Shown here piece after piece: positions 1,328-55,037 of a stretch of DNA of 64,000 bases; the first letter of the stretch is position 1; every line of letters begins with the position of its first letter. The notes beneath the pieces were generated by a model. It had not been told where the DNA came from and did not search any database. It saw nothing but the letters and a program-made list of their open reading frames with translations. Source of the DNA: Phycisphaerales bacterium (GTDB taxonomy: Bacteria > Planctomycetota > Phycisphaerae > Phycisphaerales > UBA1924); NCBI GenBank assembly GCA_030149165.1, contig JASBRY010000009.1, positions 248,001-312,000 of the forward strand, given 5' to 3'. Both the position numbers and the translations under genes were made by a program.

Positions 1328-2554
1328 ATGAATCGCACGCACATCACCACAGGATTGCTGCTCACGATCGGGACAGCCGCTGGAGCACAGACCACGCAGA
1401 CAGGCCCCAGTGTCTTTCGCGTCGAATCAGGAGTTATGTTCGAGCTCGATAACGCAGGCGCTTCGGACTACCTATTCAACTGGACTGATTCGAGTGGATC
1501 GGTCGTCAACGAATCGGGCCCAACACTCGTGCTCACTGCTGGAGAGACCTACATCTTCCGCAGAATCACTGGGTCGCATCCGTTTGTCATCACAGACGAC
1601 ACGCTCCCAATCACTGGGACCGACGGCTCGTACCAGCGGACGACCTTCGATGGCGCTGTGATTGATGCCGCGACGCTCGATCCGATCGAGGACTTCACGG
1701 CTGATCCTGGACCCACGACTGATCTGATCATGTGGACTCCAATGCCGGGAGATATCGGGGAGTACTTCTATACATGCCGTGTGACTTCGCATGTGACGAT
1801 GACCGGGCGTATCGAGGTCGTCGCGCCAGCAGGTATTGATGAGAAAGACATTCAGATCCGCAGCGTGGACTTTGATGCTGGTGTCGTCGAGTTCTTCAAC
1901 TACGGCGACGACGATCAGGACCTGAGTGGATGGCGCACATGTACGCACGACTTTGATGAGGTCCGCCGATACTCATCCTCGACTGGTTTCAACGGGTTGA
2001 TGATCGAAGCGGGGACTTCTATATTCTTGCACTACAACAACGATGCGCCGGTAGGTCCTGACAACCACAACATCTCCGCTATTGGTGGGGCATTCGCGCA
2101 ACCACTCGATCAGGACGCGTACGGCTTCCAGTTGTACCATCCAGACGAGAACGGCTCGCTCTCGTTCGGGAACAGCCAACTGATCGCGGATCACCTTCAA
2201 TGGAATATCAACGGCGAGGGTGTTGGGGGTGCTGAGACACGCACAAGCCAGGTCGTCTCGGTCGGTCTCTGGACAGCAATCGGTGACTTCATCGCGACCA
2301 CCGCGGAGTCCTCTTCGCTCGAACTCACGGACTTTGGTGATGGTCGATTGCACGGCCCGAGCAACTACAGTGTTGAGGAACCAGTCTGTATCCCAGACTT
2401 CACTGGCGAGGGACAGTTGAACTTCCTCGATGTGTCCGCGTTCCTGAGCGCGTTTGGGAATATGGATCCAGCCGCGGATCTGACAGGTGAAGGCAACTTC
2501 AACTTCCTCGATGTCTCGCTGTTCCTCCAGTTGTTCGGGCAGGGCTGTCCGTAA
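1328..2554 (+). CDS. Secreted cupredoxin / lamin-tail / dockerin-like protein
   Basis: 408 aa. Residues 1-20 form a signal peptide ending AGA. Residues about 25-165 resemble a plastocyanin/azurin-like cupredoxin: His84 (GSHPFVIT), then YTCRVTSHVTM with Cys150, His155 and Met158, a plausible type-1 copper ligand set. Residues about 175-330 resemble a lamin-tail domain (VVEFFNYGDDDQDLSGW). The last ~55 residues are two dockerin-like repeats (GEGQLNFLDVSAF, GEGNFNFLDVSLF) bounded by a Cys and a terminal GCP. It is likely extracytoplasmic and may bind copper. A terminator follows at 2584. Divergent from the ECF sigma operon, which might control it. The Cys-His-Met spacing is one residue shorter than in azurin, so copper binding is an inference. 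Confidence 0.8.
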   Translation: MNRTHITTGLLLTIGTAAGAQTTQTGPSVFRVESGVMFELDNAGASDYLFNWTDSSGSVVNESGPTLVLTAGETYIFRRITGSHPFVITDDTLPITGTDGSYQRTTFDGAVIDAATLDPIEDFTADPGPTTDLIMWTPMPGDIGEYFYTCRVTSHVTMTGRIEVVAPAGIDEKDIQIRSVDFDAGVVEFFNYGDDDQDLSGWRTCTHDFDEVRRYSSSTGFNGLMIEAGTSIFLHYNNDAPVGPDNHNISAIGGAFAQPLDQDAYGFQLYHPDENGSLSFGNSQLIADHLQWNINGEGVGGAETRTSQVVSVGLWTAIGDFIATTAESSSLELTDFGDGRLHGPSNYSVEEPVCIPDFTGEGQLNFLDVSAFLSAFGNMDPAADLTGEGNFNFLDVSLFLQLFGQGCP

Positions 2555-27278: not shown

Positions 27279-27416
27279 GCAAGAGATTCGTATATCCCCG
27301 CAAGTCCCAATCCCTACACCGCGAAGGTATCGGACAGGATGGAACCCCCCAGATATTGGATAACCACTAGGGACGCAGCGATTCGTATTCGGTTCCTCCA
27401 ATCTGGAAGAATTGTA

Positions 27417-27444
27417 TTGAATTTCCGACGAGAACCGGTACATT
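27417..27444 (+). promoter_or_regulatory. Putative promoter of the haloperoxidase-like gene
   Basis: TTGAAT (27417-27422), a 16-base spacer and TACATT (27439-27444) form a sigma-70-like promoter with a start near 27451, leaving a leader of about 50 nt before the ATG at 27503. Confidence 0.4.
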
Positions 27445-27490
27445 GACTGTATCGCCGCTGGGAATGCTACTCAGGGGTATTTCGTATCGT

Positions 27491-27497
27491 AGGAGGG
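27491..27497 (+). promoter_or_regulatory. Strong Shine-Dalgarno of the haloperoxidase-like gene
   Basis: AGGAGGG lies 5 bases before the ATG at 27503. It fixes that start over the upstream in-frame TTG at 27443 and is far stronger than most ribosome sites in the window, suggesting high expression. Confidence 0.65.
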
Positions 27498-27502
27498 TCG
27501 AA

Positions 27503-29647
27503 ATGTTTTCCAAGACTAGAACCATGTCGTTGTGCGCTGGACTCGCACTTACCGCGTCGTTTGCGGGTGCAAACGACATTCCAACAACTGTGATGACTAA
27601 GCAGGTCTCCGAATCGACCGCTGAGAAGCGTCAGATTATCCGTGACAATCTTGGCATGCTTCCTCACTCGGTCGCGCGTCAGTGGAACGAGGTCCTCCTC
27701 GATTCGATCCGCAATGACTTTGCGCGTCCCACTGTGCACGCTCGCAACCTGTACCACACCAGCGCTGCGATGTGGGATGCTTGGGCCGCGTATGACGAGC
27801 AAGCCGACCAGGTTTTGCACCACGAAAAACTCTCGGCGAAGGACGTCCAAGCTGCTCGCGAAGAAGCGATCAGCTACGCGATGTACCGCTTGCTGCGTCA
27901 TCGCTTCTTGTTCTCACCAGGTGCTCCGGACGTGCTCCCTGAGTACGACCTGCTTATGGCAGAGCTCGGCTACGACATCAGCTTCACAAGCACCGTGGGT
28001 GACAGCCCCGCTGCACTCGGAAACCGCATCGCGCAGACCATCATTGATTTCGGTATGACCGACGGTTCCAATGAAGCGGGTGCGTACGCGAACCTTGTCT
28101 ATCAGCCATTTAATCCACCTTTGCTTCCTGACTTCCCAGGGAATCCTGACATCCTTGATTTGAATCGATGGCAGCCGTTGGCGCTCGAGTTCTTCGTGGA
28201 TCAGTCCGGCAATCCGATCCCATTCGGATACCCTGAGTTCCTCAGCCCAGAATGGGGTGATGTCACGCCGTTCGCTTTGACTGACAATGATGTTCAGGTG
28301 TATGAGCGTGACGGGTTCGACTGGTCAGTCTGGCACGATCCGGGAGCGCCTCCTTACCATGGTACCCCAGAAGGCGACGCTCGCTACAAGTGGGGTTACG
28401 AGATGGTGGTAGTTTGGTCATCGCACCTCGACCCAACTGATGGCGTGATGATTGATGTTTCGCCTGGCGGAATAGGCAATGCAACATTGCCCGATGTGTC
28501 AGAAGAAACTACATACTACGACTTCACGAATGGTGGAGATTGGGGTAACGGCTGGGACACGAACCCAGTGACCGGTTTGCCATATGAGCCTCAAGTAGTA
28601 CCTCTTGGTGATTACGCAAGAATCCTCGCAGAGTTCTGGGCCGACGGTCCAGACTCCGAAACCCCTCCCGGACACTGGTTCGCTGTTATGAACTATGTCG
28701 CTGATCACCCTCTTTTCGAAAAACGATTCATGGGTGAAGGAGAAATCCTTGATGATCTTGAATGGGATGTCAGGTCCTATTTGGTCATGGGTGGTTCTAT
28801 GCATGATTGCGCGATCTCAGCATGGTCTGTGAAGGGTTACTACGACTATGTAAGGCCTGTATCAGCGATCCGTGCAATGTGTGATCTTGGACAGTGCACC
28901 GATGAAGGGCTCGCGAGCTACCACCCCGGCGGGATCAATCTGATTCCAGACTACATCGAGCTCGTGACGGCAGAGTCCACCGCTCCAGGCGAGAAGCACG
29001 AGCACCTACTCGGAAGCGAAGGCAAGATCGCGATCAAAGCATGGCGCGGTCCAACCGAGATCATCAACCCTGACACTGACGAAGCCGGTGTCGGATGGAT
29101 CCTTGCTGAAAACTGGTGGCCGTATCAGCGCCCGTCGTTCGTATCACCCCCATTTGCAGGATATGTTTCGGGACACTCGGTTTTCTCGAGAAGTGCTGCA
29201 GAAGTGATGACTCTGTTAACAGGTACGCCATTCTTCCCAGGAGGGATGGGTGAGTTCGAAGCTCCGATGAACGAGTTCCTCGTCTTCGAAGAAGGCCCAT
29301 CGATGGACATCACGCTCCAGTGGGCAACCTACCAAGACGCGTCCGATCAGACCTCGCTCTCACGCATCTGGGGTGGTATCCATCCACCCGCGGACGACCT
29401 CCCCGGTCGTCACATGGGACAGGTGATTGGTCCTGAAGCATTCACAGAAGCCCGTCGTTTCTTCGGTGGTCTCAAGTCTTGCCCCGCCGACTTCCAAGGC
29501 GACGGCCGCGTGAACTTCTTGGACATCTCCAAGTTCATCAGCGCGTACATGAGCAACGATCAACTCGCTGACATGGACGGCGACGGTGACCTCGATGCTG
29601 ACGACATCTTCGGATTCATCGATGCGATGAACCAAGGCTGCCCGTAA
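27503..29647 (+). CDS. Secreted vanadium haloperoxidase-like protein with dockerin-type tail
   Basis: 714 aa. Signal peptide 1-23 (ends AGA-ND). The vanadate/phosphate site of the VHPO/PAP2 superfamily is complete: Lys444-x6-Arg451-Pro (KGYYDYVRP), Ser556-Gly-His558 (YVSGHS) and Arg621-x5-His627 (SRIWGGIH). The last ~55 residues are a dockerin-like module ending GCP. It could oxidise halides with peroxide or act as a phosphatase; the sequence does not decide. Codon choice differs from its neighbours (CGT/CGC rather than CGA/CGG, few GATC), and it has its own promoter-like sequence, a strong ribosome site and a terminator, consistent with high expression or a separate origin. Confidence 0.87.
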   Translation: MFSKTRTMSLCAGLALTASFAGANDIPTTVMTKQVSESTAEKRQIIRDNLGMLPHSVARQWNEVLLDSIRNDFARPTVHARNLYHTSAAMWDAWAAYDEQADQVLHHEKLSAKDVQAAREEAISYAMYRLLRHRFLFSPGAPDVLPEYDLLMAELGYDISFTSTVGDSPAALGNRIAQTIIDFGMTDGSNEAGAYANLVYQPFNPPLLPDFPGNPDILDLNRWQPLALEFFVDQSGNPIPFGYPEFLSPEWGDVTPFALTDNDVQVYERDGFDWSVWHDPGAPPYHGTPEGDARYKWGYEMVVVWSSHLDPTDGVMIDVSPGGIGNATLPDVSEETTYYDFTNGGDWGNGWDTNPVTGLPYEPQVVPLGDYARILAEFWADGPDSETPPGHWFAVMNYVADHPLFEKRFMGEGEILDDLEWDVRSYLVMGGSMHDCAISAWSVKGYYDYVRPVSAIRAMCDLGQCTDEGLASYHPGGINLIPDYIELVTAESTAPGEKHEHLLGSEGKIAIKAWRGPTEIINPDTDEAGVGWILAENWWPYQRPSFVSPPFAGYVSGHSVFSRSAAEVMTLLTGTPFFPGGMGEFEAPMNEFLVFEEGPSMDITLQWATYQDASDQTSLSRIWGGIHPPADDLPGRHMGQVIGPEAFTEARRFFGGLKSCPADFQGDGRVNFLDISKFISAYMSNDQLADMDGDGDLDADDIFGFIDAMNQGCP

Positions 29648-54039: not shown

Positions 54040-54930
54040 TTACGGACATCCCATCGAATACTGAGCGAGAAACGCGGAGACATCAGTGAAGTTGAACTCT
54101 CCGTCTTGCGTGAAGTCCGCAGCTGGATCACGATCGGTGTACGCGACGAGAAACGCGGAGATGTCTCTGAAGTCCAGAGAGCCGTCATCCGACAGATCCG
54201 CGAGACACACGCCTTCGCCGTCAATCGTCCAGAACGCCGAGAGCGATCCCTCGCTGAGATCAGCGTCGAGGACTGTCGTCCCTATGTGACCCATCCTAAT
54301 CTGAATCCGATAGCTCCCTGAGTCCGATTCGAGCGGGATATCAAGATCAAAGAACTCGCCGTTGACTTCAAAGTCGAAGACCTGGAACTCAAAGAACGCT
54401 TCGTCGAATCCATCTCCCAAGTCATCTTCACTAAAGACCTGTACGAACGCAAAGTAGCTGATCGATGAAGGTCCGCCGTTGTCGAGGAATCCAGCGATGC
54501 GAAGGGAGCCATCGCCTTGGATTCGGAAGTCGTTTTCCATACCACACCGGAGCGTGTGGGAGAAGCTGATCCCGCCGGAGCCCACGGCTCCGCGCGTTCC
54601 CATGTACTCCGCGCTCCCAGTAAAGAATCCGTTGTCCTCGTTGAAGAAGGACATCATCGTCTGCGTGGTCGCGTGGAACAAGCCGTCATCAGATTCAATC
54701 ATCACGCTGGAAGTCGCGGGACCGAGCGTGTCAATCAGCAAGACCTGGTCTTCGACGACCGATAACACATCTTCTTGGCTCGTGCCGTCGAGACGGATTT
54801 CCGAATAGGACTCGATGCTTGAACGCATTGGAGTGGATGCACCGAACGCCGCTCCCGCACAAACAAAGAGGCACAAGGTCGATACATTCAGCATGGATGT
54901 CCAAGCCATCGGGAGCGTTCTCTCAATCAT
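54040..54930 (-). CDS. Secreted protein with GCP-ending dockerin-like tail
   Basis: 296 aa. Signal peptide up to about residue 30 (VCAGAAFGAS). The middle (about 35-235) is a beta-rich domain of unknown type with FFEFQVFDFEVNGEFFDL and a Cys in LRCGMEN. The C-terminal ~57 residues hold two EF-hand-like repeats (DDGSLDFRDISAF; QDGEFNFTDVSAF) flanked by Cys and the terminal GCP, as in the proteins at 1328 and 27503. The first ATG was chosen; ATGs at codons 8 and 13 are possible starts. Confidence 0.75.
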   Translation of the reverse strand: MIERTLPMAWTSMLNVSTLCLFVCAGAAFGASTPMRSSIESYSEIRLDGTSQEDVLSVVEDQVLLIDTLGPATSSVMIESDDGLFHATTQTMMSFFNEDNGFFTGSAEYMGTRGAVGSGGISFSHTLRCGMENDFRIQGDGSLRIAGFLDNGGPSSISYFAFVQVFSEDDLGDGFDEAFFEFQVFDFEVNGEFFDLDIPLESDSGSYRIQIRMGHIGTTVLDADLSEGSLSAFWTIDGEGVCLADLSDDGSLDFRDISAFLVAYTDRDPAADFTQDGEFNFTDVSAFLAQYSMGCP

Positions 54931-55037
54931 CGCCGCGATTATGCGGACGCACCGCTCCAGCGTACAAAGAGTCTATTGGCATGTGAAGTAAAATCTGCTC
55001 AGAATTCGGATGAAACTCGTCGTGTAACAGCCCCAGA

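Follow-up and report, generated by a model that had tools for sequence, protein, structure and literature searches.

A C-terminal module recurs on about 100 mostly unrelated and probably secreted proteins of this Phycisphaerales genome, and in our assessment it is probably a dockerin-like docking tag, clasped by a pair of cysteines and read by one common, lineage-matched receptor, by which the cargo would be held at one place. The domain itself is known and named, being that of NCBIfam NF041540 ("GC-type dockerin domain-anchored protein"), an entry that enters here by name and scores alone, and the fixed spacing of its cysteines is a detail. What merits attention is the case for a single shared receptor, so far unseen, together with a block change of a likely contact residue across many exported proteins. 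No study of a "GC-type dockerin" was found in the literature searched.

The window (the whole 64,000-nucleotide stretch of DNA analysed here, from a 2.84 Mb genome that is 94% complete) contains three frames with a Gly-Cys-Pro (GCP) end followed by zero to three residues, among stop-to-stop frames of at least 80 aa on both strands (Table 1). In all three, a preceding cysteine lies 53 positions before the GCP cysteine (52 residues between), both EF-type repeats are found, and NF041540 scores (39.9, 37.9, and 39.2 bits) exceed the cut-off of 29; thus, the preliminary description of three window proteins with two EF-hand-like repeats, this spacing, and this end, related to modules annotated as GC-type dockerins, is borne out. 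Pfam Dockerin_1 (PF00404) matched one of the three at E <= 1, with 15.9 bits against a gathering cut-off of 22.9. In protein 1 the NF041540 model spans Cys1 to Cys2; the Cys1 codon begins at 2387 and the stop codon ends at 2554. The Pfam matches of the second protein agree with its earlier designation as haloperoxidase-like (27503), whereas the designation of protein 1 (1328) as a cupredoxin finds no Pfam cupredoxin match at E <= 1, the only match being a lamin-tail domain below cut-off. Of the three modules, two deviate from the genome's usual core sequence, whether in a single repeat or in both. The haloperoxidase-like protein has a likely paralog in L043/L127 (at G000:C10:1139844), whose junction before the module is nearly identical (RR.F.GLKSCP).

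Table 1. Coordinates, in the window, of the three module-bearing proteins and their GC-type dockerin features.
Feature	Position	Strand	Remarks
Protein 1, 408 aa from ATG 1328	1328..2554 (frame 1316-2554)	+	Weak lamin-tail match and C-terminal GC-type dockerin module
GC-type dockerin module, protein 1	2387..2551	+	Cys1 = residue 354, Cys2 = residue 407; Cys1 to final Pro
Loop position 11 codon, repeat 1 (Leu), protein 1	2426..2428	+	Derived as Cys1 + 13
Loop position 11 codon, repeat 2 (Leu), protein 1	2507..2509	+	Derived as Cys1 + 40
Haloperoxidase-like protein, 758-aa frame	27371..29647	+	Pfam DUF6851, VCPO_2nd; C-terminal module
GC-type dockerin module of haloperoxidase-like protein	29480..29644	+	Usual core of the genome in repeat 1 only
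Third protein, 310 aa, function not assigned	54040..54972	-	C-terminal module, NF041540 match
GC-type dockerin module, third protein	54043..54207	-	Position 11 = Arg and Thr, not the usual Leu and Leu

Across the genome, NF041540 gives 102 matches at E <= 1, of which 83 pass the cut-off. The census set comprises 100 closed frames with a module of at least 25 bits by a profile built in this analysis. Both cysteines are present in 93 of these modules, neither in four, Cys2 alone in two, and Cys1 alone in one; in most modules the two cysteines are retained or lost jointly (Fisher p 1.9e-5 for joint presence, with relatedness ignored). The spacing of 52 residues and the terminal GCP had been described as invariant, and a genome search had been proposed as the check: the cysteine pair stands up to it, but the spacing and the GCP end prove to be the commonest state only, with an index difference of 53 in 65 of the 95 measured modules and GCP ends in 74 of 100. 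The other differences are 26-28 (five modules), 47 (four), 52 or 54-59 (15), 65-72 (five), and 130 (one, in which the nearer cysteine is missing). The residues after the last cysteine vary (GCP, GCE, GCK, GCQ, TCG, GCETSP, GCSAAIR, GCPGSGGTK), and in the own-genome list the module ends at most 11 residues from the stop in all but two rows. Because the pair is retained at many spacings, the constant is a cysteine at each module end and not the number 52; as a constraint in itself, the 52-residue spacing is rejected, since single-repeat modules and modules with loop insertions pair their cysteines at other spacings.

Five single-repeat modules (L039, L064, two adjacent genes at L065, and L068) carry both cysteines at an index difference of 26-28, and all five fall below the NF041540 cut-off (four of them rescanned); such modules might pair as dimers, rebuilding the two-repeat unit. 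Modules without Cys2 are present in the group L038 (G000:C10:202320), L334, L344, and L345: L038 and its relatives in the drafts JARGNC and DEXG have the ends AAG, GAG, and SQG, and a similar Cys2-less end (GSP) occurs in NVSM. Because Cys2 is absent both in L038 and in its relatives from other genomes, sequencing error is an unlikely cause. Two frames of more than 1700 aa (L045 and L046, on G000:C10), which were left outside the set of 100, carry an internal dockerin without cysteines, followed by RHS-like repeats (by eye).

Among 150 genomes of the class, with at most 37 candidates scored per genome, NF041540 matches at E <= 0.001 in 58 and above the cut-off in 30. Large module sets occur in the window's own family (9/9 genomes), in another family of the order (f4), and in one genome elsewhere; five genomes of the own family hold 36, 52, 69, 81, and at least 150 matches at E <= 0.001. 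The 121 terminal modules examined from relatives have both cysteines in 88 cases, neither in 12, Cys1 only in eight, and Cys2 only in 13; nine of these 13 come from one genome (G119), and most show Cys1 just beyond the segment used (by eye). Modules with Cys1 only occur in f4 in G084 (4 of 12). A further 120 modules were taken from 12 draft genomes (nine labelled Phycisphaerales or Phycisphaeraceae), drawn from the best 80 of 133 relatives by scan patterns that cover position 10, not 11; both cysteines are present in 111, neither in four, and Cys2 only in five, and 104 of 119 ends are GCP.

Clustered at E 1e-5, the bodies of the 100 module proteins form 62 groups, including 49 singletons. Pfam families recovered by scanning 96 of the 100 comprise FG-GAP repeats as the most frequent, then subtilases, di-haem peroxidases, and M12 peptidases, as well as many families found once. 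A signal-peptide heuristic, which is too loose to prove export, is positive for 75 of the 100 vs. 14 of 34 control frames; 10 frames lacked their N-terminal part. At three loci (L048, L050, and L058), six to nine GC-dockerin genes lie adjacent, mostly on one strand.

With respect to fold, an AlphaFold2 model of the protein 1 module, built from 57 modules, has a pLDDT of 91.6 and helices at 21-32 and 48-60. A profile made from 57 modules finds the cellulosomal dockerin 2y3n at E 1.1e-7, which is a stronger link to dockerins than Foldseek, where the model gave no hit at E <= 0.001 (dockerin 2vn5: TM 0.54/0.60, E 3.9). Alignment columns and model together show two 12-residue calcium loops with ligands at positions 1, 3, 5, 9, and 12, each followed by a helix, as in the two loop-helix repeats of type I and type II cellulosomal dockerins (2y3n, 1ohz). 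According to the portions of the literature available, cellulosomal dockerins also share with the module a symmetric recognition surface, lineage-specific residues at positions 10/11, and a head-to-tail clasp; the accessible part of one study describes the head and tail as held together by ring stacking (PMC4728124). In the GC-type module a cysteine lies close to each matching end, and we infer a disulfide between the two. Among 223 linkers between the repeats, two cysteines occur in seven, one in four, and none in 212. This second pair, found mostly in f4 modules, has its cysteines placed behind helix 1 and ahead of loop 2, and in five of the seven two-cysteine linkers the residues are symmetry mates of the outer pair (by eye); one module (L217) has the inner pair and lacks the outer. 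We read the outer and inner pairs as the two places where repeat ends meet.

The residues that would form the recognition surface are alike in both repeats and differ between genera: the core is NFLDVSAFLSAF in this genome, TIFDFLAFQN in genus g2, NFADLN.VLS in g3, and DNGDF..FF in g6. Identity over seven core positions is.70,.91,.85, and.79 within g1, g2, g3, and g6, respectively, vs..01-.31 between these four, and the agreement between the two repeats of a single protein is.77,.93,.86, and.84. An own recognition sequence, symmetric across the repeats, is clear in these four genera only, and others overlap: in g4, g14, g19, and g95 the within-genus identity (.45-.60) is hardly above between-genera values, which reach.57 (g14-g15) and.63 (g3-g5); the modules of other genomes in this comparison were mostly taken from best-scoring matches. 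Orthologous subtilases bear the core residues of their own lineage, in G090 (43% identity) and G113 (46%) with the cysteine pair, and in G137 (49%) and G106 (52%) with an incomplete outer pair.

Among near relatives of this genome the sharpest difference lies at loop position 11. Leu predominates there in this genome and in three drafts, four genomes in all, and Phe occupies it in every recognised core of nine drafts, the latter sampled by 2 to 13 modules each. In this genome Leu occupies position 11 in 75 of at least 81 repeat-1 cores and 85 of at least 93 repeat-2 cores; exceptions in the Leu genomes are a few Ile, Ser, Phe, Tyr, Arg, Thr, or Asp. When 118 Leu-set and 49 Phe-set modules of spacing 53 are compared over 54 columns, only position 11, in repeat 1 and in repeat 2, separates the two sets almost completely (overlaps of.02 and.01, against.23 for the next column): Leu stands at.95 in the one set and Phe at 1.00 in the other, in both repeats. 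The difference also holds between counterparts: of 41 reciprocal-best families, 27 have a member from a Phe genome, and the Leu/Phe difference is present in 27/27, although pairs at 27-35% identity may be paralogs. The protein of this genome is Leu/Leu in 26 of the 27 and Leu/Ile in one, and the 40 rows from Phe genomes comprise 39 Phe/Phe and one with a single recognised repeat (Phe). Reciprocal-best relatives of protein 1, for instance, are Phe/Phe in DEXG, NVSM, and JAJRPN, and Leu/Leu in WUAJ.

Body trees separate the Leu and Phe genomes in six of ten families, and do not in four, one of which has a single Phe tip; because of this split, the most parsimonious history is a single coordinated change along one branch. 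In the available parts of three studies of dockerins, positions 10 and 11 are described as determining the specificity with which cohesins are recognised, within a full set of 10, 11, 17, 18, and 22 (PMC8063739, PMC3413522, PMC5748583). Position 11 is a likely receptor contact residue here, and its coordinated change argues that some partner exists.

No cohesin was recognised as that partner. PF00963 has no match at E <= 10 in this genome (94% complete); in the class it matches 28 of 150 genomes at E <= 0.1, and these include a single genome of the nine in the family, with a score under the cut-off. A cohesin-like match in G096, also under the cut-off, is set aside as a partner, since the protein concerned looks metalloprotease-like (by eye) and is missed by a class cohesin profile. 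The class profile, built from 17 of 20 fetched cohesins, has no match in the nine family genomes at E <= 1; it matches G084 weakly (0.16) and G018 and G056 strongly, although these two are not independent controls, as each gave one row to the profile. Neighbouring non-dockerin genes yielded no clear receptor candidate. The preliminary description had listed a lack of cohesin-like partners, combined with soluble proteins whose tails are intact and unlinked, as a refuting outcome; such partners are absent as far as profiles see, but the coordinated change at position 11 argues for some partner.

Among known export systems, PEP-CTERM/exosortase and T9SS mark many unrelated exported proteins with one C-terminal tag, a short signal or a beta domain that is removed by cleavage; a PEP-CTERM substrate ends in a Pro-Glu-Pro type motif, a membrane helix, and a basic tail. 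The preliminary description had combined sorting or anchoring with C-terminal processing of this kind: the shared module on unrelated proteins, the cysteine pair, and docking-type sorting or anchoring are upheld, but the processing is not. Removal of the module during export by a membrane protease or sortase-like enzyme would fit its closeness to the stop, the predominance of GCP ends in both the genome and the draft sample, the lack of cysteines in the two internal copies, and, by family name only, the matches of two members to a choice-of-anchor B family (best 8.5e-99; L040 below cut-off) and of one to an MXYO-CTERM-anchored family. However, the module ends read have neither the motif nor a membrane helix, hydrophobic segment, or basic tail, the residues after the last cysteine are variable, and a signal destined for cleavage would have no need of paired calcium repeats whose recognition residues match. 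Exosortase is found in 16/16 genomes tested, among them two with cohesins and few NF041540 matches (4 in G018, 11 in G056); being present whatever the number of GC dockerins, it does not track the module and is uninformative as its partner. The T9SS marker SprA_N had no match in 14 genomes, with controls equally silent. Such processing is improbable. It is also doubtful, though less so, that the two cysteines are not bonded to each other and instead bind a metal or a partner (as covalent anchoring), perhaps between chains in the single-repeat modules. DsbB is absent from 14 genomes and VKOR from the nine of the family (present in 2/14 overall), the bodies have no even-cysteine bias (42 even, 41 odd; 25 and 41 once the 17 that have none are set aside), and the five single-repeat modules retain both cysteines, all of which would suit unbonded cysteines; against this, the pair is mostly kept or lost together, the second pair lies mostly at symmetry-related sites of the repeats, the module cysteines are the sole ones in 17 of 83 complete proteins once the N-terminal 30 residues are discounted as likely signal peptides, and head-to-tail clasps are described in dockerins in the part of PMC4728124 available.

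The likeness of the modules might also require no receptor at all. As a calcium-dependent stabilising end cap, the module would owe its shared residues to common ancestry within each lineage, in keeping with the negative cohesin searches (PF00963 and class profile), the relatedness by descent of modules within a genome, the overlapping cores of several genera, and the body trees, whose 6/10 split makes one old change followed by descent possible. Shuffling and descent alone, however, would not single out position 11, which changed in both repeats in 27 families while equally conserved positions did not, and orthologous bodies bear the residues of their own lineage; an end cap without a partner is accordingly unlikely. 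Gene conversion or recent copying is largely excluded as what keeps the modules alike: codons for the same residue agree more often (~.61) than body usage predicts (.435), but 172 cores comprise 152 distinct 27-mers and both serine codon blocks are used at one conserved serine, which is too diverse for recent copying and suggests that the likeness is old and selected.

In the docking tag that we favour, the two calcium-binding loop-helix repeats would pack as a pseudo-twofold unit, closed head to tail by the cysteine before loop 1 and the cysteine after the second helix, most likely as a disulfide in the role that stacked rings play in cellulosomal dockerins. A common extracellular receptor would read exposed residues in the two repeats, chiefly that at position 11, and some 100 exported proteins might thereby be held at one place, such as the cell surface or a scaffold. 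The clasp gives no explanation for the conserved final Pro. Compared with cellulosomal dockerins, the module has a Cys-Cys closing pair instead of stacked rings and no detected cohesin, and its cargo (FG-GAP proteins, proteases, peroxidases, and others) contrasts with one of mainly cellulases; compared with PEP-CTERM and T9SS tags, it is a folded, calcium-binding module that lacks any membrane segment. Dockerin-bearing peptidases have also been proposed, in the accessible part of PMC6461901, to form a surface complex with lamin-tail proteins, the planctosome, in Nemodlikiaceae, freshwater planctomycetes; as outlined there, that proposal rests on cohesins, which were not found here. More tentatively, and at somewhat less than even likelihood, the whole may be a dockerin address system that has no known cohesin, with a receptor of new fold or an unrecognisable cohesin, a covalent cysteine clasp, and at least 27 families that altered one and the same residue of both repeats in step with a change of that receptor. 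The block change at position 11 makes the question of a single partner testable: Leu and Phe genomes should have different receptors, and if one partner reads position 11, a swap of the residue should swap recognition. If true, these modules would preserve, in nature, the trace of a change in the interface between one hub and its many clients, spread over much of a secretome.

Two further observations concern the surrounding genes. One frame of this genome (L034:8903-9502, on G000:C10) ends in VPAPGAMGLLATAGVVGARRRR, which is PEP-CTERM-like by eye, and an exosortase match lies at G000:C10:365048-365839; because of these, a PEP-CTERM system probably exists beside the GC dockerins. In the window, a sigma-factor-like gene (by eye) lies at 486-1187 on the minus strand, divergent from protein 1, and frames similar to it cluster near GC-dockerin loci in this genome, WUAJ, and JARGNC.
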